Of a stretch of 64,000 nt of DNA, positions 1,797-19,128 are shown in pieces. Within the stretch, counting starts at the first letter, position 1. Each line of letters opens with the position of its first letter. The stretch covers positions 1-64,000 of the forward strand of contig NZ_CALPCP010000020.1 in assembly GCF_943192995.1 (NCBI RefSeq), written 5' to 3'. Below the pieces are notes generated by a model. That model did no database searches. It was not told where the DNA came from and saw only the letters and a list, made by a program, of their open reading frames with translations. Source of the stretch: Flintibacter muris (GTDB lineage: Bacteria; Bacillota; Clostridia; Oscillospirales; Oscillospiraceae). A program made the translations under genes and the position numbers.

Positions 1797-1811
1797 CGGA
1801 ATATAATTCCA
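1797..1811 (+). promoter_or_regulatory. Putative IclR operator overlapping the operon -10 element
   Basis: CGGAATATAATTCCA is built around the palindrome GGAAT-ATA-ATTCC. It closely resembles the published E. coli IclR box, recalled as WGGAAATNATTTCCA. It contains a TATAAT (1802-1807) that would serve as the -10 of the operon. The -35 region is poor. A site over the -10 fits repression by the neighbouring IclR protein. Palindrome and spacing are seen; regulation is inferred. Confidence 0.55.
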
Positions 1812-1842
1812 CTACATGGAACACAAGAGGGGGAATTAAAAT

Positions 1843-3066
1843 ATGGGGCTGACATTTGCGGAAAAAGTTCTAAGTAGAAAAGCCTATCAAGAGGTTCATG
1901 CAGGAGATTGTGTCATCGTCGATGTGGATGTCATGATGGCAAGCGATACGACTGGACCTATTGCGATCAAGGCATTTGAGAGTATGGGCGGAAAACAGTT
2001 GTTTCATAAAGACCGGACCGTATTTATTCTGGATCATGCTACTCCTTGCCCCAACGAACGGATTGCCGCACTGCACAAGCTAATCCGGGAGTTTTGCGGG
2101 GAACAGAAATGTGTGTTCTTTGATCAGAACCATGGGGTCTGCCATCAGGTTATGCTGGAAAAGGGCCTGGTGCATGAGGGAGACCTAGTGCTGGGAGGAG
2201 ATTCTCATACCTGTTCCTATGGCTCGGTAGGCGCTTTTTCCACCGGTGTCGGCTCTACAGAGTTGGGAGGTGCTATGCTGACGGGGAAGACTTGGCTCAT
2301 GGTGCCCCAGACCACACGCATCGAATTGAGCGGCAAACTGCCGGAGGGAGTTTATGCCAAGGATGTGGTCCTGAAGATTATTGGGGACTTAACCAGTGAC
2401 GGTGTTACCTATAAATCAGTGGAGTTTGCCGGAGATGGCTTTGCCCGCTTTACCCAAGAGGAGGCGACCACAGTCTGTAATATGACCATCGAGATGGGCG
2501 GCAAAAACGGTGTGTTTCTCTCGGCACTTACAGACCCCGGCCTGATGCCTGATAAGGATGCCGTGTACGAGCAGGTGCTTTACTATGATGCTTCCGAAAT
2601 GGTGCCTATGGTCTCCTGTCCGCACACAGTGGACAACGTGAAGCCAGTGACAGAGGCGGGGCCGGAGAAGGTGGATCTGGTCTATATCGGCAGCTGCACA
2701 AACGGGCGGCTGAGCGATTTGCAGGTTGTGGCACAGATCCTGAAAGGGAAGCATATTGCTCCCTCAGTTCGGCTTTTGGTCTGTCCAGCTTCCAATCAAG
2801 TGCTGATGCAGGCGATTGAGCATGGCTATATTCAAACAATCCTGGAGGCTGGCGGCACTATCAGCACACCAGGCTGCAGCCTGTGTGTCGGTACTCTGGG
2901 CGGGGTTCCTGGCGATGGAGAGAATGTGCTGTCCACCACAAATCGAAATTTTAAAGGCCGCATGGGCAACAGCAAAGCCAATGTGTTCCTGTCCTCACCC
3001 GCTACAGCGGCCTCCTCAGCGATTACCGGTGTTTTGACCGATCCAAGGGAGGTGATACAGAGGTGA
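1843..3066 (+). CDS. Aconitase-family dehydratase large subunit, 2,3-dimethylmalate dehydratase-like
   Basis: This 407-residue protein belongs to the LeuC/HacA/DmdA branch of the aconitase superfamily, which interconverts 2-hydroxyacids and unsaturated diacids on a [4Fe-4S] cluster. Cluster ligands are visible: Cys285 in SCTNG, and Cys345 and Cys348 in GCSLC. GGDSHTCSYG and FSTGVGSTELG are further family blocks. The length suits the stand-alone large subunit; the small subunit is the next gene, overlapping by 4 bases. LeuC is the obvious alternative, but no leuA or leuB is nearby. The following gene encodes a dimethylmalate-lyase-type enzyme, as in the end of nicotinate fermentation (DmdA-DmdB-Dml). 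The exact substrate is inferred and could be another 2,3-disubstituted malate or maleate. Initiation is at ATG after AGAGGGGG. Confidence 0.8.
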   Translation: MGLTFAEKVLSRKAYQEVHAGDCVIVDVDVMMASDTTGPIAIKAFESMGGKQLFHKDRTVFILDHATPCPNERIAALHKLIREFCGEQKCVFFDQNHGVCHQVMLEKGLVHEGDLVLGGDSHTCSYGSVGAFSTGVGSTELGGAMLTGKTWLMVPQTTRIELSGKLPEGVYAKDVVLKIIGDLTSDGVTYKSVEFAGDGFARFTQEEATTVCNMTIEMGGKNGVFLSALTDPGLMPDKDAVYEQVLYYDASEMVPMVSCPHTVDNVKPVTEAGPEKVDLVYIGSCTNGRLSDLQVVAQILKGKHIAPSVRLLVCPASNQVLMQAIEHGYIQTILEAGGTISTPGCSLCVGTLGGVPGDGENVLSTTNRNFKGRMGNSKANVFLSSPATAASSAITGVLTDPREVIQR

Positions 3067-3548
3067 GTAAAGCGTTGGTCTATGGGGACAACATCAATAC
3101 TGACTTGGTGATTGCGGGGAAATATACAAAGACGCTAAACTTTGAGGAGTTGGCGGCGCATTGTATGGAGGACCTTGATCCTCAATTTTCCTGTCGGGTG
3201 AAACCGGGAGACGTATTGGTGGCAGGCAGAAACTTTGGCTGCGGTTCCTCCCGGGAACAGGCTCCACTGGCGATCAAATATGCCGGAATAAGTGCGGTGC
3301 TGGCCCAGTCCTTTGCCCGGATCTTTTATCGCAATGCAATCAATGTGGGGGTCCCAGCGCTGATCTGCAATACCTCGTCCATCCAGGACGGCGACGAGAT
3401 TGAAGTGGATATGACCCAAGGGATCGTAACGGTGAACAAGACCCGGAAGATCAAATGCCAGTCCCTTTCGCCTATCATGCAAAGTATTCTTTCTGCTGGC
3501 GGATTGGTTCCGTTTTTGAAAGAAAAGGGGGATTTTGTGCTGGATTAA
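3063..3548 (+). CDS. Aconitase-family dehydratase small subunit, DmdB/LeuD-like
   Basis: The 161-residue swivel-domain subunit matches the LeuD/DmdB length. It contains the substrate-side block [14 protein letters not shown] and the [14 protein letters not shown] segment typical of the family. Its GTG start overlaps the large-subunit stop (GTGA), indicating translational coupling and a heterodimer. The N-terminal block [15 protein letters not shown] is the normal family start. Family membership is clear from the motifs. Assignment to dimethylmalate rather than isopropylmalate or homoaconitate rests only on the operon context. Confidence 0.85.
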
Positions 3549-3575
3549 AATCGACAAATAAGGAGAGAAAGTAGT

Positions 3576-4469
3576 ATGAATCGAACGACTCAACTCAAGC
3601 GCCTGATCCAGGCAAAGGAAATTCTGGTTATGCCAGGAGTTTATGATGCATTGAGTGCAAAAATTGCGGAAAAATGCGGTGTTAAGGCGGTACAAGTGAC
3701 CGGCTATGGACTTGCAGGCGCTGGTCTAGCACTGCCGGATGTGGGCATCATGACGAAGACGCAGATGGTAGAGCAGGTCCGCAATATTTGCCGCTCGGTC
3801 AGTATTCCAGTTATGGCGGACGGGGATACTGGATTTGGAAATGCCATCAACCTCTATTATGCAGTGAAGGACTTTGAGGAGGCTGGTGCAGCCGGTGTCA
3901 ATCTGGAGGACCAGTTTTTCCCCAAGCGCTGCGGCCATATGGGCGGCAAGCAGATTATCCCCTTTGAGGAGGCCGTAAAGAAGATTGAGGCCGCTGCCGC
4001 TGCCCGGACAGATAAGGATTTTGTCATCAATGCCCGTACAGATGCCATTGCGGTCAGCGGTGTGGATGAGGCGATCCGTCGGGGGAATGCCTTTGCCAAG
4101 GCGGGTGCGGACCTGATTTTTGTGGAAGCTCCCGAAAAGATAGACGACATCAAGCGGGTCATTCAGTCCATCGACGCACCAGTAAGTATTAATATGATCT
4201 ATGCCAAGGGCTCCAAGACCCCTGCGGTTTCCATCAGGCAGTTGGAGGAGTGGGGTGCAGCCCGAGTCAGCGTGCCGGTTATGCCGCTGTTTGCCGCCGC
4301 CAGAGCGTTGGAAAAAGCCTACACTGCCGTGGTTAATGACGATGTGGCCTCAATGAACGATCAGATATTTGAGTTTGCAGAATTTACTGATCTGGTTGGC
4401 CTACCTTTTATCAAGGAGCTGGAGAAGCGCTTCCTGGACACAGCGGAACTGGATGCACGCTATCATTAA
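3576..4469 (+). CDS. Isocitrate lyase/PEP mutase-family lyase, 2,3-dimethylmalate lyase-like
   Basis: This 297-residue TIM-barrel enzyme has the superfamily opening VMPGVYDALSAKIAEKCG, the metal-binding DGDTGFGNA and NLEDQFFPKRCGHM, where Lys117-Arg118-Cys119-Gly120-His121 is the lyase signature carrying the catalytic Cys. The family cleaves a 2-hydroxy-diacid to a 2-oxoacid plus a shorter acid. Methylisocitrate lyase, oxaloacetate decarboxylase and 2,3-dimethylmalate lyase are the closest functional types. Placement directly after a DmdAB-like dehydratase favours dimethylmalate-type cleavage to pyruvate plus propionate, or plus a longer acid if the substrate carries larger side chains. Methylisocitrate lyase is less likely because no methylcitrate synthase is present. 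Confidence 0.8.
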   Translation: MNRTTQLKRLIQAKEILVMPGVYDALSAKIAEKCGVKAVQVTGYGLAGAGLALPDVGIMTKTQMVEQVRNICRSVSIPVMADGDTGFGNAINLYYAVKDFEEAGAAGVNLEDQFFPKRCGHMGGKQIIPFEEAVKKIEAAAAARTDKDFVINARTDAIAVSGVDEAIRRGNAFAKAGADLIFVEAPEKIDDIKRVIQSIDAPVSINMIYAKGSKTPAVSIRQLEEWGAARVSVPVMPLFAAARALEKAYTAVVNDDVASMNDQIFEFAEFTDLVGLPFIKELEKRFLDTAELDARYH

Positions 4470-4526
4470 CAAGTTGTTAGATCCTTTGCCAATACACATC
4501 AATATATTTGAAAAGGGGCGTTAAAA

Positions 4527-5951
4527 ATGCAAAAATATGATTTGCTGATCAAGAACGGCGCAGTTGTCCTTGCGGATAAGGTGGAAAACTGTACGATTGC
4601 TGTCAAGGATGGTAAGATTGCCGCGATCAGCACTGCTGAGATCGCCGCTGAGGAAGCCCGGGAGGTGCTGGATGCCAAGGGGTTGACCGTTATGCCTGGT
4701 GCGGTGGACTGCCATACGCACTTCGGTATCTATGCACCGATGGACAAGGATGTCAACAGCGAGAGTAAAGCCGCACTGACCGGTGGTGTGACCACCATGA
4801 TGAGCTATTTCCGCACCGGTGCACACTACATGAACAAGACGGGCCCTTACCATGAGATTTATAAAGAGGCCCTGGAGCAGGCTGCTGGAAACGCTTATTG
4901 CGACTATTGTTTCCATCTGGCTCCCATGGATAACCTGCAGGTGCAGGAGATGGAGTGGCTGGTGGAGCAGGGCGTGGTGACCTTTAAATACTTCATGTTC
5001 TACAAAGGGCTGAATTTGGGAGCAAACTCCACTGTTTCGCCTACCATGTCCGACTGCTATGACTTGGGCCACCTTTATAACATTATGGAAGAGGCGGCCC
5101 GACTGAACACCATGCTTAAGAACGAGCCAATTTCCGTCAGTGTCCACTGTGAGGACGACGAGGTGATCAAGGCCTTTATCAAGAAGGTGAACGATGCGGG
5201 ACTGAAGGGCCTGCAGGCTTACAGCGAAGCGCGTCCTCCTATTGCGGAGCGAGTGGCAATCATGAAGGCGGGCACCGTAGCCAACGCCACAGGAGCCAAG
5301 CTCAATATTCTGCATATTACCAGCGCGGAGGCCCTTCAGGCTACACGGGATCTACTGAAAATCTATCCAAATATCAAGTTGCGCCGTGAGTGTACACTTC
5401 ATGCTCTGGGCCTGACCTGGGAGATGCTGCAGGGCAACAACTGTGCTAAGGTCAACCCGCCCTTGCGCACGAAGGCCGACAACGAGGCGCTGTGGGAGGC
5501 GCTGAAGCAGGGCGAGATCAATTGGGTAGGCTCTGATCACGCTATGACTCCCAAGGCGTTGAAGTTGGACGACGATATGTGGGGCTCCTGCTGCGGCTTT
5601 GGCGGCACCTCCCTGGTGTACCCCTTTATGGTCTCCGAGGGCTTGAAGCATGGCCTGTCGCTGCCCCGCATCGCGGAACTGGTTTCCACCAATCCCGCAA
5701 AGGCCCATGCGGCTTGGCCGAAGAAGGGCAGCATGGAGGTAGGTGCAGACGCGGACTTTGCCCTGATCAATCTGGACCTAGAGAAGACTGTCCATGCCGG
5801 CGCGGACTTTTCCGCTCAGGAGTACAACGTGTTTGAGGGAATTAAGTTGAAGGGGTGGCCTGTCATTACCATCCTGCGCGGTAAAATAGTCTATAAGGAT
5901 GGAAAGATTTTGGGCGAGCCCACCGGTGAATATGTTAAGCGTCCGTGCTGA
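4527..5951 (+). CDS. Hydantoinase/dihydropyrimidinase-family amidohydrolase (cyclic imide hydrolase candidate)
   Basis: This 474-residue amidohydrolase has a complete binuclear metal site. His63 and His65 lie in CHTHFG, Lys154 (the usual carboxylated lysine) in VVTFKYFM, His207 in SVHCEDDE, His263 in LHITSAEA and Asp337 in GSDHAM. Length and spacing fit D-hydantoinase, dihydropyrimidinase and allantoinase; imidases that open succinimide- or maleimide-type rings belong to the same family. The reaction is hydrolysis of a cyclic amide bond to a half-amide or N-carbamoyl acid. An isochorismatase-family amidase later in the operon could remove the remaining amide. Neither dihydropyrimidine dehydrogenase nor an N-carbamoyl-beta-alanine amidohydrolase of the usual type is nearby, so pyrimidine catabolism is not favoured. 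Confidence 0.85.
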   Translation: MQKYDLLIKNGAVVLADKVENCTIAVKDGKIAAISTAEIAAEEAREVLDAKGLTVMPGAVDCHTHFGIYAPMDKDVNSESKAALTGGVTTMMSYFRTGAHYMNKTGPYHEIYKEALEQAAGNAYCDYCFHLAPMDNLQVQEMEWLVEQGVVTFKYFMFYKGLNLGANSTVSPTMSDCYDLGHLYNIMEEAARLNTMLKNEPISVSVHCEDDEVIKAFIKKVNDAGLKGLQAYSEARPPIAERVAIMKAGTVANATGAKLNILHITSAEALQATRDLLKIYPNIKLRRECTLHALGLTWEMLQGNNCAKVNPPLRTKADNEALWEALKQGEINWVGSDHAMTPKALKLDDDMWGSCCGFGGTSLVYPFMVSEGLKHGLSLPRIAELVSTNPAKAHAAWPKKGSMEVGADADFALINLDLEKTVHAGADFSAQEYNVFEGIKLKGWPVITILRGKIVYKDGKILGEPTGEYVKRPC

Positions 5952-6017
5952 TTCTGCAGATGGGCCGCGCTGGTCCGGAACGCAGCGGTATAAAAAATTT
6001 ATGAAGGAGAAAGAACA

Positions 6018-7286
6018 ATGAAAAAGATGCTATCCTTGCTTTTGGTAGGCGGGATGTTCCTCTCTCTGGCAGCGTGCGGAGGTGGGAATGAAAAGACCAC
6101 TCCTGGTCAAAACGGCGGCGGAAACACTTCTCAGAGTGCCGGGAGCGATTTCAAGTGGCCCAACATGGTTAAACTGAGTATCACCGGCAGTGGTACTACG
6201 GCCTACGCAGGCACCCTGGCCTGGTCCAACATTTTGGAAGGTACCGGAAACACCAAGGTCCGTCTGCTCCCTGAGGACTCCAACGCCACCAAATTTCAGC
6301 GGGTAAGAAACGGCGAGACGCTGATGACCTATGATACCATGGGCGACGTGGCCACCCTGATTGGTGCCAAATTCGGTTACGCCACCGAGACCGGCGGCCC
6401 TTACCAGGCTCGCTGGGTCTGGCCCGATTTTGCCTCCAACAGCGTAATGTTTGTCAGGGGCGACTCCAAAATCGAAAAGCCTACCGATATTACCAAAGAT
6501 ACCCCCATTGCCTGTACTATCGACTCTGCCATGGAAAACGTGAAAGCTTCCTTGGCTGCGGCAGCCGGTGTGGATGTAGACGAGATGAACTGGGTCTACT
6601 GCTCCTCTTACGGCGAGATGCCCAAGCTGGTTACTACTGGCGCGGCCGAACTGTGTGCTTATGTTACCCCCACCTCCAGCTCCATCATTGAGGCCTCTGC
6701 CGCACCCCAGGGCATCAAGGTTATGGACTTCAACCCTGAACTTTACCCCGAGTGGTGTGCAGCCTTCCAATCTAAACAGCCTGTGTACAGCTTCAATAAG
6801 ATAGGCTTCGGCAACGAGGCGGCGATTGGCAAACACGGCTGGGGTTCCGACGGCGGTTGGATTACCTCTGAATCCGCTGATCAAGACCTAATCTATAATC
6901 TAGTCAAGTTCTTTGCTGAGTATCAGGACGAAATTCAAGGTTCTTTTGATACTTACTCCTACTACTGGTCCGTTGATTACGCCCGGGAAGTACTAGACCG
7001 TACCTATGTTCCCGTCGCTGAAGGTACTATCCGCTACTTTAAGGAAATTGGTAAGTGGACTGAGGCGGACGATGCCCGTCAGGAGTATAACATTAAGCTG
7101 ATCGACAAATATATGACTGCCTACAGCGACTGTATTGCCCAGGCCCACACCGACGGTGTGAAAATTGATACACAAAACCAGGACTGGCTGGACTACTGGG
7201 AAGCCTATAAGGAGGCTCAGAACCTGCCCCCGGTGGTTATCATGTCCGATGCGGAGATCGCGGAGGCCCTGGCTGCCGGCTTCTAA
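6018..7286 (+). CDS. TAXI-type TRAP transporter solute-binding lipoprotein
   Basis: This 422-residue extracytoplasmic receptor begins with a lipoprotein signal peptide ending in LAAC, so Cys20 would be lipidated, followed by a Gly/Ser/Asn-rich linker. The mature part has the TAXI-family features SITGSGTTAYAGTLAWSN near its start and periodic ligand-binding-lobe segments after it. It delivers substrate to the fused permease encoded next. The two genes are separated by 100 bases containing a 12-base hairpin. TAXI receptors usually bind carboxylates or amino acids, which fits a catabolic role. The ligand here is unknown. Confidence 0.88.
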   Translation: MKKMLSLLLVGGMFLSLAACGGGNEKTTPGQNGGGNTSQSAGSDFKWPNMVKLSITGSGTTAYAGTLAWSNILEGTGNTKVRLLPEDSNATKFQRVRNGETLMTYDTMGDVATLIGAKFGYATETGGPYQARWVWPDFASNSVMFVRGDSKIEKPTDITKDTPIACTIDSAMENVKASLAAAAGVDVDEMNWVYCSSYGEMPKLVTTGAAELCAYVTPTSSSIIEASAAPQGIKVMDFNPELYPEWCAAFQSKQPVYSFNKIGFGNEAAIGKHGWGSDGGWITSESADQDLIYNLVKFFAEYQDEIQGSFDTYSYYWSVDYAREVLDRTYVPVAEGTIRYFKEIGKWTEADDARQEYNIKLIDKYMTAYSDCIAQAHTDGVKIDTQNQDWLDYWEAYKEAQNLPPVVIMSDAEIAEALAAGF

Positions 7287-7316
7287 CCATCTAGAATATT
7301 GAACACCTACAAATAA

Positions 7317-7351
7317 GATGGGCGGAGCGCGTGCTTCGTGCTCCGCCCATC
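7317..7351 (+). terminator. Intra-operon hairpin between TRAP receptor and permease genes
   Basis: A perfect 12-base G+C-rich stem (7317-7328 with 7340-7351) has an 11-base loop and no good T-tract. It sits between the receptor and permease genes. It is better read as a 3'-end stabiliser or partial terminator that keeps receptor expression above permease expression than as the end of the operon. Confidence 0.6.
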
Positions 7352-7386
7352 GTGTGCCTTTACGGGAAATTAGGAGGTCTTTCTGA

Positions 7387-9402
7387 ATGGCTTTCGGAAA
7401 AAAGAAGCTGAATGAAGGAGAACTGGAGGAACTAAAGGACGAAAAGCGCAAGGCAGAGGCGGAGGAGGAAGTCAATAAGGATAACTCACGCCTGGCTGTT
7501 ATGCCGCCGCTGGTACGCCATGGGTTCACCATCATCTCCATCATCGGCATCCTTATCGCGTGCTACTACATGATGCACTTTCGCTGGTTCGGTGTTATGT
7601 CCGCAACCACCTACTATTATACGATCTTCGCTGTATTTGGCTGCAGCGCATTTCTGCTGACCCCTGCGTCTAAAAAATATGAATCCTATATTCCCTGGTT
7701 TGACTATGTGTTGACGCTTCTGGCTTTGGCCATTCCCTTATACTTCGCAGTCCATGGCATTGAGATTAACATGGTCGGCTGGGTGCCTGCCCCTGATACA
7801 TTCAAGCTGGTTATCGCAGTGGTCTACTCTTTGATGTTGCTGGAGATGGTCCGACGGGGTGCGGGCAGAGCATTCTTTGTAATCTGCGTCTTTTTTGGTC
7901 TGTATCCTCTGGTGTGCGAGCATCTGCCCGGTATGCTGGCCGGCATCGGGTTTGACATTAAGACACTGTTCAGTTACTACTGCTACGGTTCTGAAGGTAT
8001 TGCCGGTCTGCCCGGTAACATCACCGGCACCATCCTGATTGGGTTCTTGATGTTTGCCAACCTACTGATCTGTTCCGGTGCCGGCCCCTTCTTTATTGAC
8101 TTGGCCCAGGCGCTGTGCGGCAGGTACCGTGGCGGTACAGCCAAAGTGGCCGTGCTGACCTCCGCCTTTTTTGGGATGCTGTCTGGTTCGCCAATCTCTA
8201 ATGTAGTCTCCTCTGGCTCCATTACAATCCCTGCTATGAAGAAGTCCGGCTATGACGCAGTTTACGCCGGCGGCATTGAGGCTGTGGCAGCTACCGGCGG
8301 CATCTTGATGCCTCCGGTTATGGGCTCGATCGTGTTCGTCATGGTGGCTATGTCTGGATTCACATATGCCCAGGTTATGGTGGCGGCCATATTCCCTGCC
8401 CTGTGTTACTATGGTGGTCTGCTGCTTCAAGTAGACGCTTATGCGGCCAACCATGGTATGAAGGGCCTACCCACAGACCAGTGTCCCAGCGTAAAGGAGA
8501 CACTGAAGCGGGGCTGGTATGTGATCGTCGTTCTTATTTTCCTGTGCGTTGGGCTGGTCTACTTCCGTTGGGGCGAGGTTACCCCCTATTACGCCTCTGG
8601 TCTGCTAATCGCCCTGTCCTGGTTTGACCGGAATCCCAAGAACCGACTTACTCCCAAGAATTTGTATCACGCTTGTGCTCTGATCGGCAAAGCAATCACT
8701 CAAATCTGTGCCCTAATGCTGCCCTTCACCTTTACTATTGCTGGTCTGATCACCACTGGTATGGCTGCCTCTTTTGCCACCAGCATTACCCGTTTGGGCG
8801 GTGAGAGTATCATCTCTGTGGTGGCGCTGACCATTTTGGCCTGTTACCTTATGGGAATGATGGGCATGGATATTGTAGCCTATATGTTCTTTGCCGTGTC
8901 TGTCGCGCCTGCCCTGGTAGGTACCGGCCTGGACAAGATGGCAGTACACCTATTCCTGATCTACTATCCTCTGCTGGCTGTTATTACCCCGCCTGTAGCC
9001 ACAGTGGCCTTCGTAGCGTCCTCTGTGGCTGGAGCTCCCGCTATGAAAACAGGTTGGAAGGCCTGTCAGTTGGGTTGCGTGGTCTACTTTCTGCCCCTCT
9101 ACTTTCTGTACGAACCTGCAATCCTGCTCCAGGGCGGTAATTTGTTGCTGAGCCTGTACCATATGGCCTTTGTGGCGCTGGGCACCTTCATCCTGGCCAG
9201 TGGAATCGGCGGTTATATGATGAAGATGGGCAAGATGCATAGCCGGATAGAACAACTGCTCTTTGCTTTAGGAGGTATTCTGATCGCTTTCCCCCGGACA
9301 GATATCACATTAATTGGTGTGGCCTTTACCGTGGCTGCTTTCCTGGTCCACCGGATCAACAGCAAAAAGCTGTCTGGGGGCTCTGCACCTCAGACTGCAT
9401 AG
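7387..9402 (+). CDS. TRAP transporter fused permease (4TM/12TM, TAXI type)
   Basis: This 671-residue membrane protein fuses the small (DctQ-like, 4 helices) and large (DctM-like, about 12 helices) TRAP subunits, as is usual for TAXI systems. It starts with a charged cytoplasmic stretch of about 35 residues rich in Lys and Glu. Many hydrophobic segments follow, including SGSPISNVVSSGSITIPAM and AVAATGGILMPPVMGSIVF, the conserved pore loops of the DctM domain. It is a sodium- or proton-driven secondary importer working with the preceding lipoprotein. AGGAGG precedes the ATG. Confidence 0.92.
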   Translation: MAFGKKKLNEGELEELKDEKRKAEAEEEVNKDNSRLAVMPPLVRHGFTIISIIGILIACYYMMHFRWFGVMSATTYYYTIFAVFGCSAFLLTPASKKYESYIPWFDYVLTLLALAIPLYFAVHGIEINMVGWVPAPDTFKLVIAVVYSLMLLEMVRRGAGRAFFVICVFFGLYPLVCEHLPGMLAGIGFDIKTLFSYYCYGSEGIAGLPGNITGTILIGFLMFANLLICSGAGPFFIDLAQALCGRYRGGTAKVAVLTSAFFGMLSGSPISNVVSSGSITIPAMKKSGYDAVYAGGIEAVAATGGILMPPVMGSIVFVMVAMSGFTYAQVMVAAIFPALCYYGGLLLQVDAYAANHGMKGLPTDQCPSVKETLKRGWYVIVVLIFLCVGLVYFRWGEVTPYYASGLLIALSWFDRNPKNRLTPKNLYHACALIGKAITQICALMLPFTFTIAGLITTGMAASFATSITRLGGESIISVVALTILACYLMGMMGMDIVAYMFFAVSVAPALVGTGLDKMAVHLFLIYYPLLAVITPPVATVAFVASSVAGAPAMKTGWKACQLGCVVYFLPLYFLYEPAILLQGGNLLLSLYHMAFVALGTFILASGIGGYMMKMGKMHSRIEQLLFALGGILIAFPRTDITLIGVAFTVAAFLVHRINSKKLSGGSAPQTA

Positions 9403-9428
9403 TTTGAAGAAAGGATGGGTGATACAAG

Positions 9429-10226
9429 ATGGAGATTAACACTTTGGGAATGAAGCCTCGGGAAAATTGCTGCCCCCATGCGATCATTCAGAACTTTATC
9501 AATTTTGATTTTACTGTATCCAACATAGAGGCTGCCAAAAAGATGTTCCTGCCAGCCCCTCTGGAACCCAGAGCAGACGAGGACGGCGATATCATCCTGA
9601 CCTGCGGATTTGTGGATTCTGCATTTCCTCCTATGCGGGAGGTGGAGGGGGAAACTCCTGACCCCAACACTACCGAGTTTTCTGAGTGTGCATTGGGCAT
9701 GTCCTGTACGGTGAACGGAAAGCCCAATATTATGAATACCTGGATTTTGTTGGACCACTATGCTGGTGCCCTTCGCCGTGGGTTTAATCGCAGCGTGATT
9801 GATAATTTTTCACGCACTCGAAACCATCCTATGTTAGAGGGTGAGGAGCACATCAGCATTGGCAGCCGGATGTTTGCCACCTGTACCAACGACGGTTCTC
9901 TGTATGCGAGAGCCTCGCTGACTGTAAAAGAAATCCACGACGCCAACTGGCTGGATGAGCACTTTTTCGACTGGGGCCAGCTACGTTACTTGCCGGATAT
10001 GGCCCATGGCGACGATGTTAAGCCCCTGATTCAGCAAGCCTCCCTGTACCATTTCCCGTCCAAGTTTGAGGTGAGCAAGGTCTATGTGGGCGATGGCAAG
10101 CTGGAATTTGGCGATACGCTGTACGGCCTATTCCAGGAGCTGGGCGAGATTAAGATCAAGCGGGCGTTCTTTGTCACCTTTGCCTATACCTACGGCAGCG
10201 AAGAATTCCTGTGCGATGCCAAGTGA
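9429..10226 (+). CDS. Acetoacetate-decarboxylase-like protein, type A, first copy
   Basis: This 265-residue protein resembles the acetoacetate decarboxylase superfamily: LPAPLEP at 41-47, REVEGETPDPNTTEF near 70-84 and the beta-barrel C-terminal half FGDTLYGLFQELGEI. It is most similar by eye to the protein encoded at 11031 (shared LPxPLEP, REVExGExPDPxxTEF, ALRRG/GLRRG and FAYTYGS/FGYCYGS). The YPKK segment that carries the Schiff-base lysine in Clostridium acetoacetate decarboxylase corresponds to IDNFSRTRN here, with no lysine. The activity is therefore unclear. It begins 27 bases after the TRAP permease gene and is followed 12 bases later by a type B copy. Confidence 0.7.
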   Translation: MEINTLGMKPRENCCPHAIIQNFINFDFTVSNIEAAKKMFLPAPLEPRADEDGDIILTCGFVDSAFPPMREVEGETPDPNTTEFSECALGMSCTVNGKPNIMNTWILLDHYAGALRRGFNRSVIDNFSRTRNHPMLEGEEHISIGSRMFATCTNDGSLYARASLTVKEIHDANWLDEHFFDWGQLRYLPDMAHGDDVKPLIQQASLYHFPSKFEVSKVYVGDGKLEFGDTLYGLFQELGEIKIKRAFFVTFAYTYGSEEFLCDAK

Positions 10227-10238
10227 GGAGGGAAGACA

Positions 10239-10997
10239 GTGCAGAATTTTAAATATGTACCCTATGAGCCTATTGTAGGCAACATCCGCAAGGTAGGTGA
10301 GACCGTCTTCCTTGCAGAGCTCAAGATTAACACGTCGGAATTTGCTTCCCGGGTTCCTGAGGGCTTTCAGGTGGTATCCGATAGGGCATATGTAGTGATG
10401 ACAGAGGCATCCCTACGGGACGAGAAGAGCAAGGACTACCCCTTCATCAACCCAATCTATTCGCAATACTACTCCGCCGGGATTCTGGTGGATATAGAGG
10501 CCCGGGGCCATCGGGGTTGGACCTATGCAGTGCGCTACTTTGACAGGGATTGGGCCGTGATGGAGAGCCGTATCAAAGGCTTTGACGCATTCTATGCCAA
10601 CATTCGGACCACCCGTTTCCCCACGGAAATGATGGATTTTTATTACATCCAGGAGGGTAGCCGATTAAAGGCGGTGGCCATTGACGAGGGAACTAAGCCC
10701 ATCAGTCTATGTTTTGATGCGGACAAGCCTGTTGGAGAAATGAGTTTTGATTTCCTTTTTGCCAACCGGATCGGCCTTCGCAAGGTGATGCAGCTGGTGG
10801 AGGAGCGTAAGGGTGAAGCCATCTGTGATGATATCACTCAGGAGATTGTCACGGATATCCGCTATCGGGATGTCTGGCAGGGCCGAGATGTCAAGCTGGT
10901 CTTTAATGCAGAAGAGGTAGGCTCATTTGCTTACGAGGTTCAAAACACCTACTGGTTTATGATGGGCTACAATGCAAAGGGGATCAAAATTCTCTAA
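10239..10997 (+). CDS. Acetoacetate-decarboxylase-like protein, type B, first copy
   Basis: This 252-residue acetoacetate-decarboxylase-like protein is of a second type, paired with the protein encoded at 11825 (shared RDWAV, xxINRF/IRTTRF and a C-terminal YxVQNTYWF/YEIIDAYYF strand). A GTG start follows GAGGAGGG. The region aligned to the catalytic YPKK reads KGFDAFYAN, so the Schiff-base lysine is not at the expected place. It sits immediately after a type A gene, suggesting the A and B proteins form a heteromer or act in sequence. The family call is by pattern and alignment by eye, without profile search. Confidence 0.62.
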   Translation: MQNFKYVPYEPIVGNIRKVGETVFLAELKINTSEFASRVPEGFQVVSDRAYVVMTEASLRDEKSKDYPFINPIYSQYYSAGILVDIEARGHRGWTYAVRYFDRDWAVMESRIKGFDAFYANIRTTRFPTEMMDFYYIQEGSRLKAVAIDEGTKPISLCFDADKPVGEMSFDFLFANRIGLRKVMQLVEERKGEAICDDITQEIVTDIRYRDVWQGRDVKLVFNAEEVGSFAYEVQNTYWFMMGYNAKGIKIL

Positions 10998-11030
10998 GAC
11001 ATCAAAAATAAAGAACGGAGTGAATGTTGA

Positions 11031-11834
11031 ATGCCTGAACTGAATACAAAGGTAAATCCTGCGCCTGGCGAAAAATATGTTATGACGCAAAGCCTCATTA
11101 TGGTTCCCTTCCGCGCAGACCCCAAGAAGCTTCAGGCGCGTATGCTGCCCAAGCCTCTTGAGCCGGTAGGCAAAGGTGATATCGGCTGGGTGTATATGGT
11201 GGATACCGCCATGCCTGGCCTGCGGGAAGTGGAGGACGGTGAACCGCCTGATCCCGACATGACTGAATTCCATGAGCTGGCCATTGGTATGCCTGCCATA
11301 TACAATGGCTTCGAGTTTGGATATATGTCTCAGGTCTGTCTGGACCGCCAGACCGCCGGCCTGCGCCGCGGCATTCTGCGCAATATTACCTATACCCAGA
11401 TGACGGATATCCAGCCTCTGCTGACCGGCCGCAGCGAGCTGAAGGCGGGGACAAAGCTCTATGGCATCTCCCACCGGCCCCATGGCGAGATGGTGTGCAA
11501 GCTGTCCATCGAACTGACCGAACCCTACGATTTTGACGCGCTTCCTGTGGGCTGTCGGAGATTTGCTCATGCCCGGTACCTGAAGGACCCGGCCAACCAA
11601 AATGAACCCTTTGTCAAGGATGTCCCCCTGTTCCAGTTTACCAACGGTCTAGACGGCGTAGACTGCTGGAGGGGAAAGACGACGCTGCAGTTCGGCGGCG
11701 ATTACTATGGCAAGTGGCTGGACCTGGGGGAGATTGAGCCGCTGGACGGTTTCTTCTATAACTTTGGCTACTGCTATGGCAGCGATTCACAGGTAACGCC
11801 TGTTGACGAAAAGGGGGATTGGAAATGGTTTTGA
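11031..11834 (+). CDS. Acetoacetate-decarboxylase-like protein, type A, second copy
   Basis: This 267-residue protein is the closest relative in the window of the type A protein at 9429. It shares MLPKPLEP near 38-45, REVEDGEPPDPDMTEF, LDRQTAGLRRG and a C-terminal LDLGEIEPLDGFFYNFGYCYGS that parallels its partner. The segment matching the catalytic lysine region reads NITYTQMTD. The 3' end overlaps the next type B gene by 10 bases, so the second A-B pair is translationally coupled. The repeated A-B-A-B order looks like duplication of a two-gene unit followed by divergence. Confidence 0.68.
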   Translation: MPELNTKVNPAPGEKYVMTQSLIMVPFRADPKKLQARMLPKPLEPVGKGDIGWVYMVDTAMPGLREVEDGEPPDPDMTEFHELAIGMPAIYNGFEFGYMSQVCLDRQTAGLRRGILRNITYTQMTDIQPLLTGRSELKAGTKLYGISHRPHGEMVCKLSIELTEPYDFDALPVGCRRFAHARYLKDPANQNEPFVKDVPLFQFTNGLDGVDCWRGKTTLQFGGDYYGKWLDLGEIEPLDGFFYNFGYCYGSDSQVTPVDEKGDWKWF

Positions 11835-12589
11835 ACGAGGAGAAAGGAAGAGCCCGTCGACATGTTGCAGAGAACATTATTTCTTTCCGCCTAAAACTTG
11901 ATCCCAAGATAATTGCTCAATATCTTCCTGCTCCCTTCGAAATGAATCGGGAGGGCGAACTTATGATCATGCTTGCGGATTACTATGGGCATGATGAGGA
12001 CATGACAGAGCAGGCTGAAAAGGCCGCCAATTTTGTCTATCCCTACTTTACCACCATGCAGGAGGGGCTTATCAGCATTCCCTGTAAGTTTGAGGGTAGA
12101 CCCGGCAACTATTTGACGAAGATTTGGCAGGATCGAGATTGGGCAGTCCAGCGCGGCCCCATGCTGGGCTATAACACGGAACTGGCTGAGGTCCACATCA
12201 ATCGTTTCCCCGGCCGCCTGCGCAAACTGTATGCCCCTCATGTAGGCAGCAAGATTAAAGGTGTAGTTCGTCAGAATGGAGACAATCTAATCTCCGGCTG
12301 GATCGAACTTACCGAAAAGGTTGTGTATCCGGAAGAGGAATACATGGTCTGCTATGGTCGCCGCCAAGTGGAGGATATGCTGGACCCCACGGGTGAGAAG
12401 TTGATCGACGATATTCTGATCGAATATCACGATTCCGAAATCAAAGGGGATGTCTTCAAGGGACATGGCCATTTGAAGCTGGGCGGCTTTATGGAAAACT
12501 GGGATTACGAGATCATCGACGCTTATTACTTTGAAATAGGATTCTCCACCTCCGGATGGAAAGTTTTGAAGGATCTTAAGCAGAAGTGA
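11825..12589 (+). CDS. Acetoacetate-decarboxylase-like protein, type B, second copy
   Basis: This 254-residue protein aligns best of the four with acetoacetate decarboxylase: YLPAPFE near 33-39, then MQEGLISIPCKFEGRPG, which parallels the TESGQAIPVSFNGVKG block. The catalytic YPKK position reads YNTE (116-119), so the Schiff-base lysine is replaced. The ATG at 11825 lies inside the end of the preceding gene, after AAGGGGG. A TTG two codons upstream is a poorer choice. Loss of the lysine in all four copies argues against simple acetoacetate decarboxylation. Confidence 0.66.
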   Translation: MVLNEEKGRARRHVAENIISFRLKLDPKIIAQYLPAPFEMNREGELMIMLADYYGHDEDMTEQAEKAANFVYPYFTTMQEGLISIPCKFEGRPGNYLTKIWQDRDWAVQRGPMLGYNTELAEVHINRFPGRLRKLYAPHVGSKIKGVVRQNGDNLISGWIELTEKVVYPEEEYMVCYGRRQVEDMLDPTGEKLIDDILIEYHDSEIKGDVFKGHGHLKLGGFMENWDYEIIDAYYFEIGFSTSGWKVLKDLKQK

Positions 12590-12616
12590 CCGTGCAGCGC
12601 AAGCATCATTTAACAT

Positions 12617-12646
12617 GCGGGGGGCAGTGGGGACATCGCCCCCCGC
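12617..12646 (+). terminator. Intra-operon hairpin before the MFS gene
   Basis: A 9-base G+C stem with six consecutive G-C pairs (12617-12625 with 12638-12646) and a 12-base loop is followed by ACTTTTAT. It lies between the last acetoacetate-decarboxylase-like gene and the MFS gene. It may reduce read-through into the distal half of the operon. Confidence 0.6.
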
Positions 12647-12684
12647 ACTTTTATCTGCCGGTCTGTGCCGGCCTGAGGTGGAAA

Positions 12685-13968
12685 ATGAAAATAAAACATT
12701 CCAAGCTGTGGTATTGGCTTACTGTACTCTCGCTATTTTTAGTGATGATGTTCAACTGCGGTGTGGGCTATTATAGCCTTTCGCTGTTTGTAATGCCAAT
12801 CACTAGGACCTTTGGGATCAGCAGCGGTGATTTTGCAGTGGTATATGTCTTTTACGGCATCGGCAGCGCCGCCGCCGCAATGAGTCTGTATAAACTGCTG
12901 AAGCGTATTTCTTTGAAGCAGATGATCATCTTTGGCGGCCTGATTAGCATGGTGGGCTATATTCTCTTTTCCGGTGCTCACAGTCTGGTTTATCTGTTTG
13001 CTGGCGGCATTCTTATTGGCGCCTCCACAGTGTTCTCGGGTACGGCGGCAGTGCAGTTGGTTATTGCGCGCTGGTTCTCCGACCGGCGCAGCCAGATCAC
13101 TGGGCTGGTGGCATCTGCCAGTGGGATTGGCACGGCGATAGGAAGTCCCTTTGTAGGCTGGGTCATCCGCAGCGTGGGTTGGCGGACGGCGTGTTTCATG
13201 ATTGGGGGGCTGGTCGCAATATTTGTGTGTGTCCAGGCTGTTTTCCTGCTGAGGGATGATCCTGGTCATGTGGGCCTGCAGCCTTACACATTGGGACATA
13301 AAAATGAAAATGTCAGTGATGATCCGGATTTGGAAGAGGGCGGAATCGCCCTGCAAGAGGGGATGAGGCGCCCCTACTTCTGGCTGTTTTTCGGGGGAAT
13401 GATTGTGGTAGCAGTGGTCTATCAAATCATTTCTCTGTATCAGTCCACTATTTTAATTGAACGTGGCTTTTCAGAAGAACTGGCGGCAGCTTGCCTTTCG
13501 GTGTTCGCAGTGGTGGATATGTGCTGTAAGGCCAGTGCAGGCATGATTGCAGATCGGTTCGGCTTCCGACTGGTGACGCTGTACTGTGCGGTATGCACTG
13601 CGTCAGCCTTTATTGCAGTAAGGGTGGTGAACGGCACACCAGGGGCAATTCTGTTTTCGGCCCTGCTAGGCTTTTGGCCTACCATCTGTGTGCTGTATGG
13701 TGTGACAGCATCTATCTCCCTATTTGGGAAAAAGCATCTCTCAGAATATATAGGATTTACCCAGACGCTGATGTGCTGTTGTTCCCTGGTGGGTATGCCT
13801 GCGGTCCGTCACTTGTACAACACAGTAGGAACCTTTGGTGGGATCATGAACATTGCCATCGGATTTTTGATGGTCTTCTGTCTTATGATGGTTTTGATGC
13901 TGAGGAAGAAAAATCTATTTGGGATGGAGCTGGCTGAGCCGGCAAATATGGAGAAGGAGAAAACATGA
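12685..13968 (+). CDS. MFS transporter (monocarboxylate/oxalate-formate antiporter-like)
   Basis: This 427-residue protein has about 12 hydrophobic segments. Its MFS signatures are WFSDRRSQITGLVASASGIG between helices 4 and 5 and MIADRFGFRLVTLYC in the second half. The pattern with GxGxAxxSPFVGWVI resembles monocarboxylate and oxalate:formate carriers. The ATG at 12685 after GAGGTGG is preferred over an upstream GTG/TTG-type start that would add non-membrane residues. It overlaps the following amidase gene by 4 bases. As a second carrier in the operon it may export a product acid or import another form of the substrate. Confidence 0.82.
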   Translation: MKIKHSKLWYWLTVLSLFLVMMFNCGVGYYSLSLFVMPITRTFGISSGDFAVVYVFYGIGSAAAAMSLYKLLKRISLKQMIIFGGLISMVGYILFSGAHSLVYLFAGGILIGASTVFSGTAAVQLVIARWFSDRRSQITGLVASASGIGTAIGSPFVGWVIRSVGWRTACFMIGGLVAIFVCVQAVFLLRDDPGHVGLQPYTLGHKNENVSDDPDLEEGGIALQEGMRRPYFWLFFGGMIVVAVVYQIISLYQSTILIERGFSEELAAACLSVFAVVDMCCKASAGMIADRFGFRLVTLYCAVCTASAFIAVRVVNGTPGAILFSALLGFWPTICVLYGVTASISLFGKKHLSEYIGFTQTLMCCCSLVGMPAVRHLYNTVGTFGGIMNIAIGFLMVFCLMMVLMLRKKNLFGMELAEPANMEKEKT

Positions 13969-14687
13969 GCGGACAAATATCCAAGATCTGGGAAGATATT
14001 CTCACAGAAGAAGACCGCATTGTTATCGAAAAGGGAAAATATGGACAGCCAAGAGGTTATGGGAAACGGCCGGTCCTGATGTGTATTGACCTGCAACCCA
14101 ACTACATTGGCAGAGATGCACCCATTACAGAGCAGTTGGAAGAGTGGCCCTCTGGTGGAGGCGCAAAGGCGTGGGTAGGCGTTCGAAATATTATCTCTCT
14201 GCGGGATGCGGCGCGGGAGGCGGGAGTCCCGGTTTTCTATACCCGCAATGTCCAGAACAGGACTGCTCTGTTTGACAATTTTGCAGGAAAGCGGGTTCGG
14301 GATAACAGAAAATTTATAGATGGACACCCCTGTGCAGCTCTTCTAGACTGTGTGCAGCCATGGACAAAGGAGCTTGTAATCCCCAAAAGCTATGCCAGTG
14401 CTTTTTATGGTACCCCCTTGCAGAGCTACCTGACTACCTTGGGCATTGACACAGTTATTATTGTTGGCGGTTCCACCAGCGGCTGTTGCCGCGCTACGGC
14501 GGTAGACGCCGCGAGCCGGAGCTATCACCTGGTCTGTGTGGAGGATTGCCTTTTTGACCGAATCGTGGTCTCCCACAAAGCGGCATTGCTGGATATCTGG
14601 ATGAAGTATGGGGATGTGGTGGACAGTGACAATGTCAAGGAATATTTTGCAAAGCTCAGAAATGGAGAAAATGGAGCAGCCCAATAA
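13965..14687 (+). CDS. Isochorismatase-family amidase (N-carbamoylsarcosine/maleamate amidase-like)
   Basis: This 240-residue cysteine hydrolase has the triad Asp42 (CIDLQ), Lys141 (VIPKSYAS) and Cys174 in GGSTSGCCRATAVDA. That last block is characteristic of N-carbamoylsarcosine amidases and maleamate amidohydrolases rather than true isochorismatases. The family releases ammonia from a half-amide or carbamoyl group. Together with the hydantoinase-type enzyme it would complete conversion of a cyclic imide or ureide to free acid. The ATG overlaps the MFS stop (ATGA). Nicotinamidase is an alternative, but the SGCxRATAVDA block fits the carbamoylsarcosine/maleamate group better. Confidence 0.8.
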   Translation: MSGQISKIWEDILTEEDRIVIEKGKYGQPRGYGKRPVLMCIDLQPNYIGRDAPITEQLEEWPSGGGAKAWVGVRNIISLRDAAREAGVPVFYTRNVQNRTALFDNFAGKRVRDNRKFIDGHPCAALLDCVQPWTKELVIPKSYASAFYGTPLQSYLTTLGIDTVIIVGGSTSGCCRATAVDAASRSYHLVCVEDCLFDRIVVSHKAALLDIWMKYGDVVDSDNVKEYFAKLRNGENGAAQ

Positions 14688-14877
14688 AGACGGATGTGTT
14701 TTGTGCTTGTGCCTCAATGTTACCAGCGGTAGCATCAGACGGGCGGTGGAGGCAGGCGCGAGGACCTTTTCAGAGGTGCAGCAGTATACCCACTGCGCCA
14801 AGAGCTGTGGAATGTGCGCCGATGGGATAAAAGCAGAGTTGACACGCCTGCTAGCAGAAGCTAAGAGGCAGCAGTGA
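14662..14877 (+). CDS. BFD-like [2Fe-2S] protein
   Basis: This protein of about 71 residues consists of one BFD-type iron-sulfur domain. Cys15-x-Cys17 near the N-terminus and Cys49-x2-Cys52 (SCGMC) bracket the helix SIRRAVEAGARTFSEVQQYT. Such domains bind a [2Fe-2S] cluster and pass electrons in bacterioferritin-associated ferredoxin, nitrite reductases and some oxidoreductases. ATG at 14662 or 14671 are both possible, each overlapping the end of the amidase gene. The gene lies directly before a flavoprotein that lacks its NAD(P)H/FAD half, so it may be that enzyme's electron donor (inference). Confidence 0.78.
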   Translation: MEKMEQPNKDGCVLCLCLNVTSGSIRRAVEAGARTFSEVQQYTHCAKSCGMCADGIKAELTRLLAEAKRQQ

Positions 14878-14895
14878 GGATCGGAGGTAGCGGAC

Positions 14896-15957
14896 ATGTA
14901 CAAAACTATCCTGTCACCAGTGAATTATGGCGGGATTATTTTGAAAAACAGGATCATTTTTGCCCCAAGCACTATGGGACTTTCCAGAGATGAATTTTTA
15001 GCAAAACTTCGACAGATTGCCAGGGGCGGCTGTGCCATGATTATCATTGGCGATGTGCCAGCAAGTCCATGGTCGACAGAGCCATCGCTGTATAAGGAAG
15101 AGGATCTGTCTTATTACAGCCAGATGACAGATACAGTCCACCAGGAGAACTGCAGGATCTGTGCACAGCTGTACCTGTCGGATTCAGTGGCGGAGGATGG
15201 AGCAGGAGGTATCCGGCTGGTCTCCAAAGAGGAGACGGGGGACTATGTGTCTCAGCTTTCTGCTACCCAGCTAAGCCGTTATGCGGCTATGTTCGGCGAT
15301 GCTGCCCAGTTGGCCCAAAAAGCTGGCTTTGATATGGTCCAGATATTAGGCGACCGTATGCTGGGAAGCCTATGTTCCACTATTTTTAACCGGAGAAAAG
15401 ATGAGTATGGGGGAGACATGAAAAGCAGGGCGCACTTTGTTCAGGAATGTGTCGGTGCAGTCCGCATCCGTCTGCCTCAACTGCCAGTAGACTATAAGCT
15501 GTGCGTCCGCCAAGAGAATCCCCATTATGGCAACGCAGGGGTTTTGCAGGAGGAGGTGCCCTATTATGTACAGGTCTTGGAGAAGGCCGGGGTGACAAGT
15601 TTTCATGTGACCCTTGCAAACCACTGTGCCTTGGGTGATGTGATTCCCTCAGCCAAGCACCCCTATTTTGGTGAAGAGGGGTGTTTTCTGCGCTATAGTG
15701 ACATAGTCCGAAACTGTACCAGTTTACCAGTCTGCGGTGTAGGGGGATTGACAGATCCGGATTTTGTGGAGAAGCAGCTAACATCTGGAAGAATTGATTG
15801 TGCTGCTATGAGCCGACAGTTGATAGCAGACCCAGAGTGGGTCAACAAGATTCGCCAAGGCAGACCGGAGACCATTCAGCGCTGCCTTCGCTGTAATGGC
15901 AGGTGTATCCAGGGAATGATAGAACGTTCCAGTGTACATTGTATGTATGAGAAATAA
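14896..15957 (+). CDS. Old-yellow-enzyme/2-enoate-reductase-type flavoprotein lacking the C-terminal FAD/NAD domain
   Basis: This 353-residue protein has the FMN-binding TIM barrel of the 2,4-dienoyl-CoA reductase/2-enoate reductase family: LKNRIIFAPSTM at 17-28, FNRRKDEYGG at 164-173 and RQLIADPEWVNKIRQG at 307-322. It ends just after a complete [4Fe-4S] ligand set C330-x2-C333-x3-C337-x11-C349. Full-length relatives continue for about 300 residues with FAD and NAD(P)H domains, absent here. The catalytic HxAHGYL segment of typical family members is replaced by ILGDRML (Leu151-Gly152-Asp153-Arg154), recalling the HGDR motif described for bacterial bilirubin reductase BilR. It probably reduces a C=C bond. 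The substrate is unknown. It is the last gene of the operon. Confidence 0.78.
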   Translation: MYKTILSPVNYGGIILKNRIIFAPSTMGLSRDEFLAKLRQIARGGCAMIIIGDVPASPWSTEPSLYKEEDLSYYSQMTDTVHQENCRICAQLYLSDSVAEDGAGGIRLVSKEETGDYVSQLSATQLSRYAAMFGDAAQLAQKAGFDMVQILGDRMLGSLCSTIFNRRKDEYGGDMKSRAHFVQECVGAVRIRLPQLPVDYKLCVRQENPHYGNAGVLQEEVPYYVQVLEKAGVTSFHVTLANHCALGDVIPSAKHPYFGEEGCFLRYSDIVRNCTSLPVCGVGGLTDPDFVEKQLTSGRIDCAAMSRQLIADPEWVNKIRQGRPETIQRCLRCNGRCIQGMIERSSVHCMYEK

Positions 15958-19110: not shown

Positions 19111-19128
19111 GTCGGTTTTTTGTGTCCA

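Follow-up and report, generated by a model that had tools for sequence, protein, structure and literature searches.

The 64,000-nucleotide stretch of Flintibacter muris DNA analysed here (positions 1 to 64,000 of contig NZ_CALPCP010000020.1; hereafter the window) contains an operon, composed of a gene for an IclR-family regulator and 14 downstream genes on the same strand (1843-15957), which joins known enzyme families in a new way. This operon could import and degrade a 2,3-disubstituted maleimide-type imide carrying an acidic side chain, or a larger precursor yielding one, a reading that we hold tentatively and with slightly less than even confidence. Its reactions, substrate and products are deduced from what was observed, namely which genes are present, that their order is conserved and their linkage recurrent, that selection on them is purifying, to which families they belong and which residues have changed.

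Gene content of the operon

Every gene named in the first-pass annotation was found on the forward strand, with the family that had been claimed for it, families being assigned from Pfam, NCBIfam and comparison with the sequences of solved structures. The regulator gene, iclR (923..1726; Pfam IclR_C and HTH_IclR), would control the operon genes. It is followed by the leuC-like (1843..3066) and leuD-like (3063..3548) genes, encoding the LeuC/HacA-type large and LeuD/HacB-type small subunits of a hydratase, then by genes for a lyase of the PEP mutase/ICL superfamily (3576..4469) and for a hydantoinase-type amidohydrolase, a putative imidase (4527..5951). Import functions are represented by a TAXI-type solute-binding protein (6018..7286; Pfam NMT1_3; TIGR02122 at 46 bits, under its cut-off of 84) and a fused TRAP permease (7387..9402; TIGR02123, 470 bits vs a cut-off of 321). 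Four genes for acetoacetate decarboxylase (ADC)-like proteins come next, adc1 (9429..10226), adc2 (10239..10997), adc3 (11031..11834) and adc4 (11819..12589), and then those for an MFS carrier (12685..13968; Pfam MFS_1), which is nearest to the lactate and oxalate/formate carboxylate families with all its NCBIfam matches under cut-off, an isochorismatase-type amidase (13965..14687), a BFD-type [2Fe-2S] ferredoxin (14671..14877; Pfam Fer2_BFD) and an OYE-family flavoprotein (14896..15957), all on the forward strand. The BFD and MFS genes probably start at 14671 and 12685, the longest open reading frames (ORFs) starting at 14608 and 12586, respectively.

An old unit maintained in two genera

A close hydantoinase (E 1e-80) is encoded by 2 of the 400 family genomes searched, the window's own and G1034, which belongs to another genus (85% identity). 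Nine further genomes listed for the genus of the window all lack one, and the window's own genome alone matched when 394 genomes of the order were searched. In G1034 the order is identical, namely iclR-leuC-leuD-lyase-hydantoinase-TAXI-TRAP-adc1-adc2-adc3-adc4-MFS-amidase-BFD, with the iclR counterpart (64% identical) at the equal place. The identities between the two copies are 90% for adc1, 89% for adc3, 88% for the TRAP permease, 87% for both the lyase and adc4, 85% for the hydantoinase, 79% for adc2, 77% for the TAXI protein, 74% for leuD, 72% for leuC, 69% for the MFS carrier and 50% for BFD, so that adc1, adc3 and adc4 are among the operon's most conserved genes. As the iclR-to-bfd order recurs in another genus, the gene arrangement is beyond chance.

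The ratio of non-synonymous to synonymous substitution rates (dN/dS) between the window and G1034, in a set of 12 genes from which the amidase, BFD and OYE genes were left out, is 0.02-0.12 for 11 of them, iclR being saturated at synonymous sites. The iclR-through-bfd unit is under purifying selection. Given the order shared with G1034, the identities, the dN/dS values and the few genomes with a match, the operon is an old, maintained and patchily distributed unit.

Recurrent linkage of ring opener, hydratase and lyase across phyla

The hydantoinase was aligned with three relatives from the plasmid collection and the resulting profile was used to scan genome contigs; the best 80 of at least 554 candidate loci, together with five loci of the plasmid collection, form the 85 hydantoinase loci to which all the following counts refer. 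When genes within 4 kb of the hydantoinase gene are taken as near (sequence totals of 622 kb near and 772 kb far), leuC and leuD are each found near in 9 loci and far in 1, the lyase in 6 and 3, amidase-type genes in 10 and 5, and iclR in 21 and 5, respectively. The window order iclR-leuC-leuD-lyase-hydantoinase is matched in a locus of Armatimonadota (L020); leuC, leuD, lyase and hydantoinase are also grouped in L023, of Bipolaricaulota, in the unclassified L028 and, with the lyase on the opposite strand, in L062, of Thermoplasmatota, and leuD-lyase-hydantoinase stands at a contig end in L037. The amidase directly adjoins the hydantoinase in L013, L014 and L073, the arrangement in L014, a Hydrogenophaga plasmid, being hydantoinase-amidase-lyase. 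Hydantoinases beside LeuCD and/or the lyase are found in Armatimonadota, Bipolaricaulota, Bacillota, Proteobacteria and Thermoplasmatota. In the hydantoinase tree, where the window row is a long branch without close partner, the leuCD-linked loci are spread over four separate branches, which indicates that the link between leuCD and hydantoinase has emerged or been preserved more than once. A link of the imidase-type amidohydrolase with a hydratase and a lyase, claimed at first from the window, is thus real and recurs across phyla, and the search for the gene set across genomes that had been suggested at the same time yields the iclR-to-bfd order in G1034 and partial modules in several phyla.

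Clustering of the ORFs located within 8 kb of the hydantoinase reveals a type III CoA-transferase in 48/85 loci, MmgE/PrpD in 42/85 and an HpcH/CitE lyase in 26/85, the near/far comparison, the sole background measured, covering the window's own proteins. A PF04199 cyclase (25/85), IclR (25/85) and a FAD_binding_2 protein (12/85) are found within the same distance. Clusters were labelled by scanning one to three of their members with Pfam, those of IclR, LeuC and lyase by a match to the window proteins, and ORF picking is crude in high-G+C DNA, the leuC of L020 having been missed though found by tblastn. In L015 (Bacillota), the lyase and the full CoA set are co-located. From these loci, which are independent of the window, we infer that MmgE/PrpD, CoA-transferase and CitE form an alternative hydrate-and-cleave set replacing LeuCD and the lyase. 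The presence of two alternative sets of this kind beside related amidohydrolases would fit an unsaturated diacid as the product.

In L087 and L090, two loci of Proteobacteria, the genes upstream of the hydantoinase encode a PF02441 flavoprotein, which looks UbiX-like by sight, and two proteins of the FAD_binding_2 family (Pfam for L087); this set beside hydantoinase-LeuCD is another module variant.

The hydantoinase-type enzyme was placed by Pfam, NCBIfam and solved relatives. Its candidate metal ligands H63, H65, K154, H207, H263 and D337, which we take to be the binuclear metal ligands and the Lys for carbamylation, are invariant in a four-row alignment. Its best named models are allantoinase, dihydropyrimidinase, dihydroorotase and hydantoin-5-propionate hydrolase (ErtD), and among the best 25 of 74 families it passes no named equivalog cut-off (255/631, 245/393 and 241/358 at best). 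The amidase matches Pfam Isochorismatase (108 bits vs a cut-off of 27), has N-carbamoylsarcosine amidohydrolase as its best solved match and misses the RutB and biuret hydrolase equivalog cut-offs (48 vs 378 and 47 vs 370, respectively). The two enzymes could alternatively serve nitrogen salvage from a ureide, a hydantoin or a creatinine-type compound, the hydratase-lyase pathway being an unrelated neighbour. The named models of the hydantoinase, even if all are under cut-off, and the best solved match of the amidase speak for such a role, but the LeuCD/lyase linkage in several phyla, and the alternative hydratase-CoA-lyase set in many more, would be superfluous for a ureide route, and we consider nitrogen salvage very unlikely.

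Hydratase and lyase residues suggest an acidic side chain

The LeuC-like protein (Pfam Aconitase), in which [4Fe-4S] Cys motifs were recognised by sight, scores 484 bits on TIGR02086 (cut-off 410) and the LeuD-like protein 201.6 on TIGR02087 (cut-off 109), both above cut-off, and the leucine equivalogs are missed by both (LEU2, 420 vs 611; leud, 184 vs 246). There is no LeuB-like gene within the operon, and a separate LeuC-LeuD-LeuB-like set (LeuB named by sight) lies on contig C6 of the host genome. The missed equivalog cut-offs and this separate set argue against a role in leucine biosynthesis, which was rejected, in keeping with the first-pass annotation.

In homoaconitase, the Arg of the YLRT loop binds the extra carboxylate. 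The best solved match of the LeuD-like protein is the homoaconitase small subunit 2pkp (178 bits, vs 155 for 3vba), and its loop reads YTKT in both the window and G1034, compared with YLRT in 2pkp and YLVY in 3vba, an isopropylmalate/citramalate isomerase. This small-subunit recognition loop sets substrate specificity, according to the part of the source available (PMC7308503). The best solved match of the lyase is petal death protein 1zlp (206 bits), the solved 2,3-dimethylmalate lyase 3fa3 giving 134 bits, and the protein is under the cut-off of methylisocitrate lyase PrpB (TIGR02317, 239 bits vs 354). Its catalytic motif, PKRCGH, is that of ICL/PrpB/Dml lyases (K-R/K-C-G-H), in which the Cys has a catalytic role. 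It also has a two-residue basic insertion (the stretch reads YAKGSKTP here and YARGAKTP in G1034), which is absent from 7 of 9 other aligned lyases, one of the remaining two being masked there and the other cut short. The initial assignment to the DmdAB/Dml type therefore holds at the level of a LeuCD-type hydratase and an ICL-superfamily lyase, but the proteins are not clearly Dmd/Dml, the nearest solved lyase being petal death protein.

The LeuD Lys and the lyase insertion could each bring a conserved positive charge to a place suited to the carboxylate of a substituent. As both are kept in G1034, they suggest that the substrate carries an acidic side chain.

These enzymes would also be compatible with a ring opener acting on another N-heterocycle (a lactam, a ureide or, in the manner of nicotinate fermentation, a pyridine-derived glutarimide or enamide), LeuCD and the lyase finishing a branched unsaturated diacid formed from it, as happens in Eubacterium barkeri in the 2,3-dimethylmaleate branch. 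Anaerobic nicotinate fermentation ends with a hydratase and a lyase similar to this pair. An OYE, a cyclic imidase and an amidase all act in fungal nicotinate breakdown as described in the available part of the source, but the imidase concerned, HxnM, is of a different family from the operon ring opener (PMC9304392). Moreover, no Pfam or NCBIfam family listed for the 15 proteins of the operon bears the name of another nicotinate enzyme, reference nicotinate sequences being outside this comparison. The structure 2vun, which we take to be enamidase, is not among the best 60 of 93 solved relatives of the hydantoinase and, as a weak point, the genome has no gene of the MM-CoA-mutase family, to which 2-methyleneglutarate mutase presumably belongs. 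We thus regard action on another N-heterocycle as fairly unlikely.

Lysine-less ADC-like pairs

Pfam ADC is matched by adc2 (34.1 bits vs a cut-off of 29.8), adc3 (38.6 bits) and adc4 (64.2 bits; solved relative 5upb), and adc1 has no Pfam match of its own. Three of the four ADC-like proteins originally claimed hence stand on Pfam, the one encoded at 9429-10226 being placed by its 31% identity to adc3, and a profile of all four matches the ADC chains of solved structures. As adc2 and adc4 are paired as well (24% identity), the order 1-2-3-4 looks like the outcome of duplicating a pair of genes. At the sites of the ADC Lys pair, which we take to be K115/K116, the catalytic Lys of clostridial acetoacetate decarboxylase, adc1 to adc4 have R/S, A/F, R/N and T/E, respectively, adc4 having been aligned directly to 5upb and adc1-adc3 through low-identity alignments; the residues of adc1, adc3 and adc4 are unchanged in G1034. 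Since the pair is replaced in all four proteins, Schiff-base chemistry is unlikely, and a classical decarboxylase role was rejected. The AlphaFold model of ADC-like protein 1 has a mean pLDDT of 61.

The distribution of these genes is narrow. Among 398 genomes of the phylum, adc1 was found in that of the window alone, and among 199 relatives of G1034 in G1034 itself alone; adc4 was found in 1 of 295 order genomes, again the window's own, with one remote match among the 85 hydantoinase loci (L075). In 72,556 plasmid records, adc3 has no relative and adc4 two remote matches, whose neighbours are unlike those of the operon. A distant ADC-like gene is located slightly upstream of a malonate decarboxylase cluster on a Sinorhizobium plasmid (L109, 8896-9732). 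Whatever substrate reading holds, the lysine-less ADC-like pairs are a conserved protein type whose chemistry awaits description.

A relative of bilirubin reductases

The OYE-like flavoprotein, whose family is as first claimed, proves in addition to be related to bilirubin reductases: it scores 487 bits on the NCBIfam bilirubin reductase NF045592 (cut-off 425; 485 in the genome search) and is the sole match in its genome, such matches (1e-90) being present in 13 of 295 order genomes, 10 of them above cut-off, the window's included. With the four nearest short-form relatives it shares 53-57% identity, a figure that reaches 59% in the alignment used for the tree; 'short form' is here a label given by length and by position apart from two long forms, with no reference BilR compared. 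In a 13-row tree, which has neither outgroup nor reference BilR, it clusters, at 98/97 support, with four short-form proteins that have HGDR; its branch is 0.9 long, vs 0.15-0.29 for those four, the placement of so long a row being flagged as unsure.

The protein reads LGDR instead of the HGDR present in 12/12 relatives compared, it keeps GDR, the Fe-S Cys motif and the counterparts of D166 and R167, and the stretch after residue 98 is shortened relative to relatives in the alignment. In the accessible part of the BilR study, D166 and R167 of the HGDR motif matter, as shown by changing both together (PMC10769871), and BilV and three BilR subtypes are described in another work (PMC13252198). 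Tree and alignment make the operon OYE a rapidly evolved relative of the short-form bilirubin reductases, and it was probably recruited from bilirubin reductase in this lineage. Because of LGDR and the shortened stretch, bilirubin may not be its substrate.

Proposed route and points against it

In the imide route that we favour, TAXI-TRAP would import the imide or a larger compound, and upstream preparation of the substrate would fall to the BFD ferredoxin, to the ADC-like pairs, which may be heteromeric, and, in this species alone, to OYE, a re-purposed flavoprotein of the bilirubin reductase type. The hydantoinase-type enzyme would then open the five-membered imide to a half-amide, which the isochorismatase-type amidase would convert, with release of ammonia, to a cis-unsaturated diacid or triacid. 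Water would be added to this unsaturated acid by the LeuCD-type Fe-S hydratase, and the PrpB/petal-death-protein-like lyase would cleave the malate-type product to a 2-oxo acid and a carboxylic acid. These last four steps, opening, deamidation, hydration and cleavage, are plausible, and they are those of the first-pass annotation, of which the enzyme linkage recurs but maleimide as the natural substrate is unsupported, as is a gut habitat of the host.

Hematinic acid (3-methyl-4-carboxyethylmaleimide) is the best candidate substrate from these sequence clues. It would fit the acidic side chain, as it carries a propionate and its opened, deamidated form would be a methyl-homoaconitate; the latter would be converted to methyl-homoisocitrate and then to pyruvate and glutarate. 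One wider possibility, which we judge unlikely, is an anaerobic route for the pyrrole rings of haem, bile pigments and chlorophyll, where OYE and the ADC-like pairs would free or trim an imide such as hematinic acid that is then cleaved to pyruvate and glutarate, the modules of soil, marine and archaeal origin recycling such imides by alternative sets.

Several points weigh against the imide route. The four ADC-like genes are without a role in it and are the main unexplained part of the operon. At the level of linkage, leuC is within 4 kb in only 9/85 loci, 19/85 loci are without any of seven scored clusters within 8 kb (some loci end at contig edges), and the main hydantoinase clade does not include L013 and L014. 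The closest solved chains of the LeuC-like protein are isopropylmalate isomerase (IPMI)/citramalate isomerase (345 bits), followed by homoaconitase (317), and the LeuD Lys is not common to related modules, with YLER in L020, FLER in L028 and other loops again in L023 and L062, which means that the substrates of the modules may differ. In G1034, the amidase (L130) matches in two pieces, of 72% and 81% identity, in different frames. OYE was not found in the G1034 copy (E 1e-3, 34 kb around the operon), nor a BilR above cut-off in that genome, and this absence weakens the link to bile pigments. Finally, anoxic gut conditions are argued to hinder tetrapyrrole ring opening in the part of the source available (PMC7318184).

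The last two points also bear on bile-pigment catabolism proper, by which OYE would reduce a bilin or a di- or monopyrrolic fragment, the ADC-like pairs would break or trim it, and the imidase-to-lyase enzymes would consume the ring. The identity of OYE to short-form relatives and its grouping with them argue for this alternative, as do reports that leaves contain hematinic acid and that the spit and feces of insect herbivores contain mono- and dipyrrolic products related to it; these herbivore products derive from chlorophyll, and maleimides were not detected among them as far as the accessible text goes (PMC7318184). The title of one cited work refers to hematinic acid release from haem by the E. 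coli protein ChuS (PMC8669743). Besides the absence of OYE from the second operon copy and the anoxic gut, the change of HGDR to LGDR and the shortened stretch are against it, as are the bilR-type neighbourhoods of 10 of the 12 relatives (7 above cut-off and 3 below; up to 8 kb on each side), which contain one partial TRAP match and, besides it and the reductase, no match to an operon protein. This alternative is in our view quite unlikely.

The frame split of the G1034 amidase, within an otherwise kept operon, could be an assembly error or an inactivation.

Transcription and surroundings of the operon

With the revised BFD and MFS starts, the leuC-to-OYE gaps range from -17 to +66 nt, with two longer exceptions, both containing hairpins. 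The tight spacing noted at first is confirmed for most gaps, which are short or negative, but not for these two. The TAXI-TRAP gap, of 100 nt, contains a strong hairpin (7317..7351, +; fold z -3.8), and the adc4-MFS gap, of 95 nt, a G+C hairpin followed by TTTT (12616..12647, +; fold z -2.2), with a terminator-like site at 12627-12646, the scan giving a total of 18 sites vs 15.9 in shuffles. The adc4-MFS hairpin is a possible partial terminator, and transcript processing or partial termination is possible at both; a single transcript for the whole operon is uncertain because hairpins occupy the two longer gaps. Between iclR and leuC there is a 14-bp perfect inverted repeat (1747..1780, no strand assigned; fold z -4.4), a terminator or an operator. 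Palindromic motifs ahead of leuC (window 1798-1821), GGAATATAATTCC and TTCCACTACATGGAA, resemble IclR-type operators by eye.

The operon has a G+C content of 0.50-0.54 and the DNA to its right mostly 0.56-0.64, including windows of 0.54, 0.55, 0.47 and 0.54. BRO-N, DUF6017 and RepA_N genes near the operon end (18336-20610) suggest a mobile-element remnant. The operon may have been recently transferred into its host, as its lower G+C and the RepA_N, DUF6017 and BRO genes at 18.3-20.6 kb would suggest, but the G+C of the G1034 copy matches its surroundings and the copies are old, with dS > 1 in 11/12 genes and saturation in the twelfth.

Two further loci of genome G000 contain related genes. On contig C13 (L126, 10004-10159, -), a 52-codon fragment is 77% identical to the start of the operon LeuC, a remnant of a related gene, with no other operon-protein match in the 20 kb around it. 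Contig C12 (L128, about 2730-10431, -) has a further LeuC-LeuD-TRAP run, which seems to belong to a separate operon for catabolism in that genome; by sight, its neighbours resemble TAXI, dehydratase, aminotransferase and RraA genes.

Significance and comparison with known systems

Judged by title and abstract start, none of the open-licence papers that the searches listed describes such an operon or route, in agreement with the initial remark that none of this content was known, and those papers describe no bacterial catabolic genes for tetrapyrrole-derived maleimides or hematinic acid. A conserved operon that couples imide opening with hydration and C-C cleavage, and whose related modules occur in several phyla, supplies enzymes to test. 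If the bile-pigment reading were true, microbial haem metabolism would extend past urobilinogen to carbon and nitrogen use.

Nicotinate fermentation ends with DmdAB and Dml acting on a branched malate. The operon shares with that system a LeuCD-type Fe-S hydratase followed by an ICL-superfamily lyase, but differs from it by the lack of named nicotinate genes, the hydantoinase-type ring opener, the Lys of the LeuD loop and a lyase nearer to petal death protein than to 3fa3. Likewise, methanogen homoaconitase HacAB resembles the operon hydratase in that the small subunit aligns best with 2pkp and has a basic residue at the position of the YLRT Arg, but the operon subunits are under the HacA/HacB equivalog cut-offs, the large subunit is nearer to IPMI/citramalate isomerase and the context is catabolic.

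Cyclic imides are broken down by an imidase and a half-amidase in Blastobacter and Pseudomonas, and the order from imide to half-amide to acid would be the same here. The fungal imidase HxnM, whose partner is HxnN, is PgdA/PuuE-like and 64% identical to a P. putida imidase homologue, according to the accessible part of the source (PMC9304392); in contrast to the HxnM/HxnN imide route, the operon ring opener is hydantoinase-type and is joined to a hydratase and a lyase. The ADC-like proteins are tied to the acetoacetate decarboxylase superfamily (5upb, 4zbo, MppR) by Pfam ADC for three of them and by the profile of all four, and are set apart from it by the replaced Lys pair. Finally, compared with the BilR short form, as far as it is described in the part of the source available (PMC10769871), the operon OYE is above the NCBIfam cut-off, has GDR and the Fe-S Cys motif and is grouped with short forms, if with an unsure placement, but it is distinguished by LGDR, the shortened stretch, the long branch and its setting in a catabolic operon, which none of the 10 bilR-type neighbourhoods shares.

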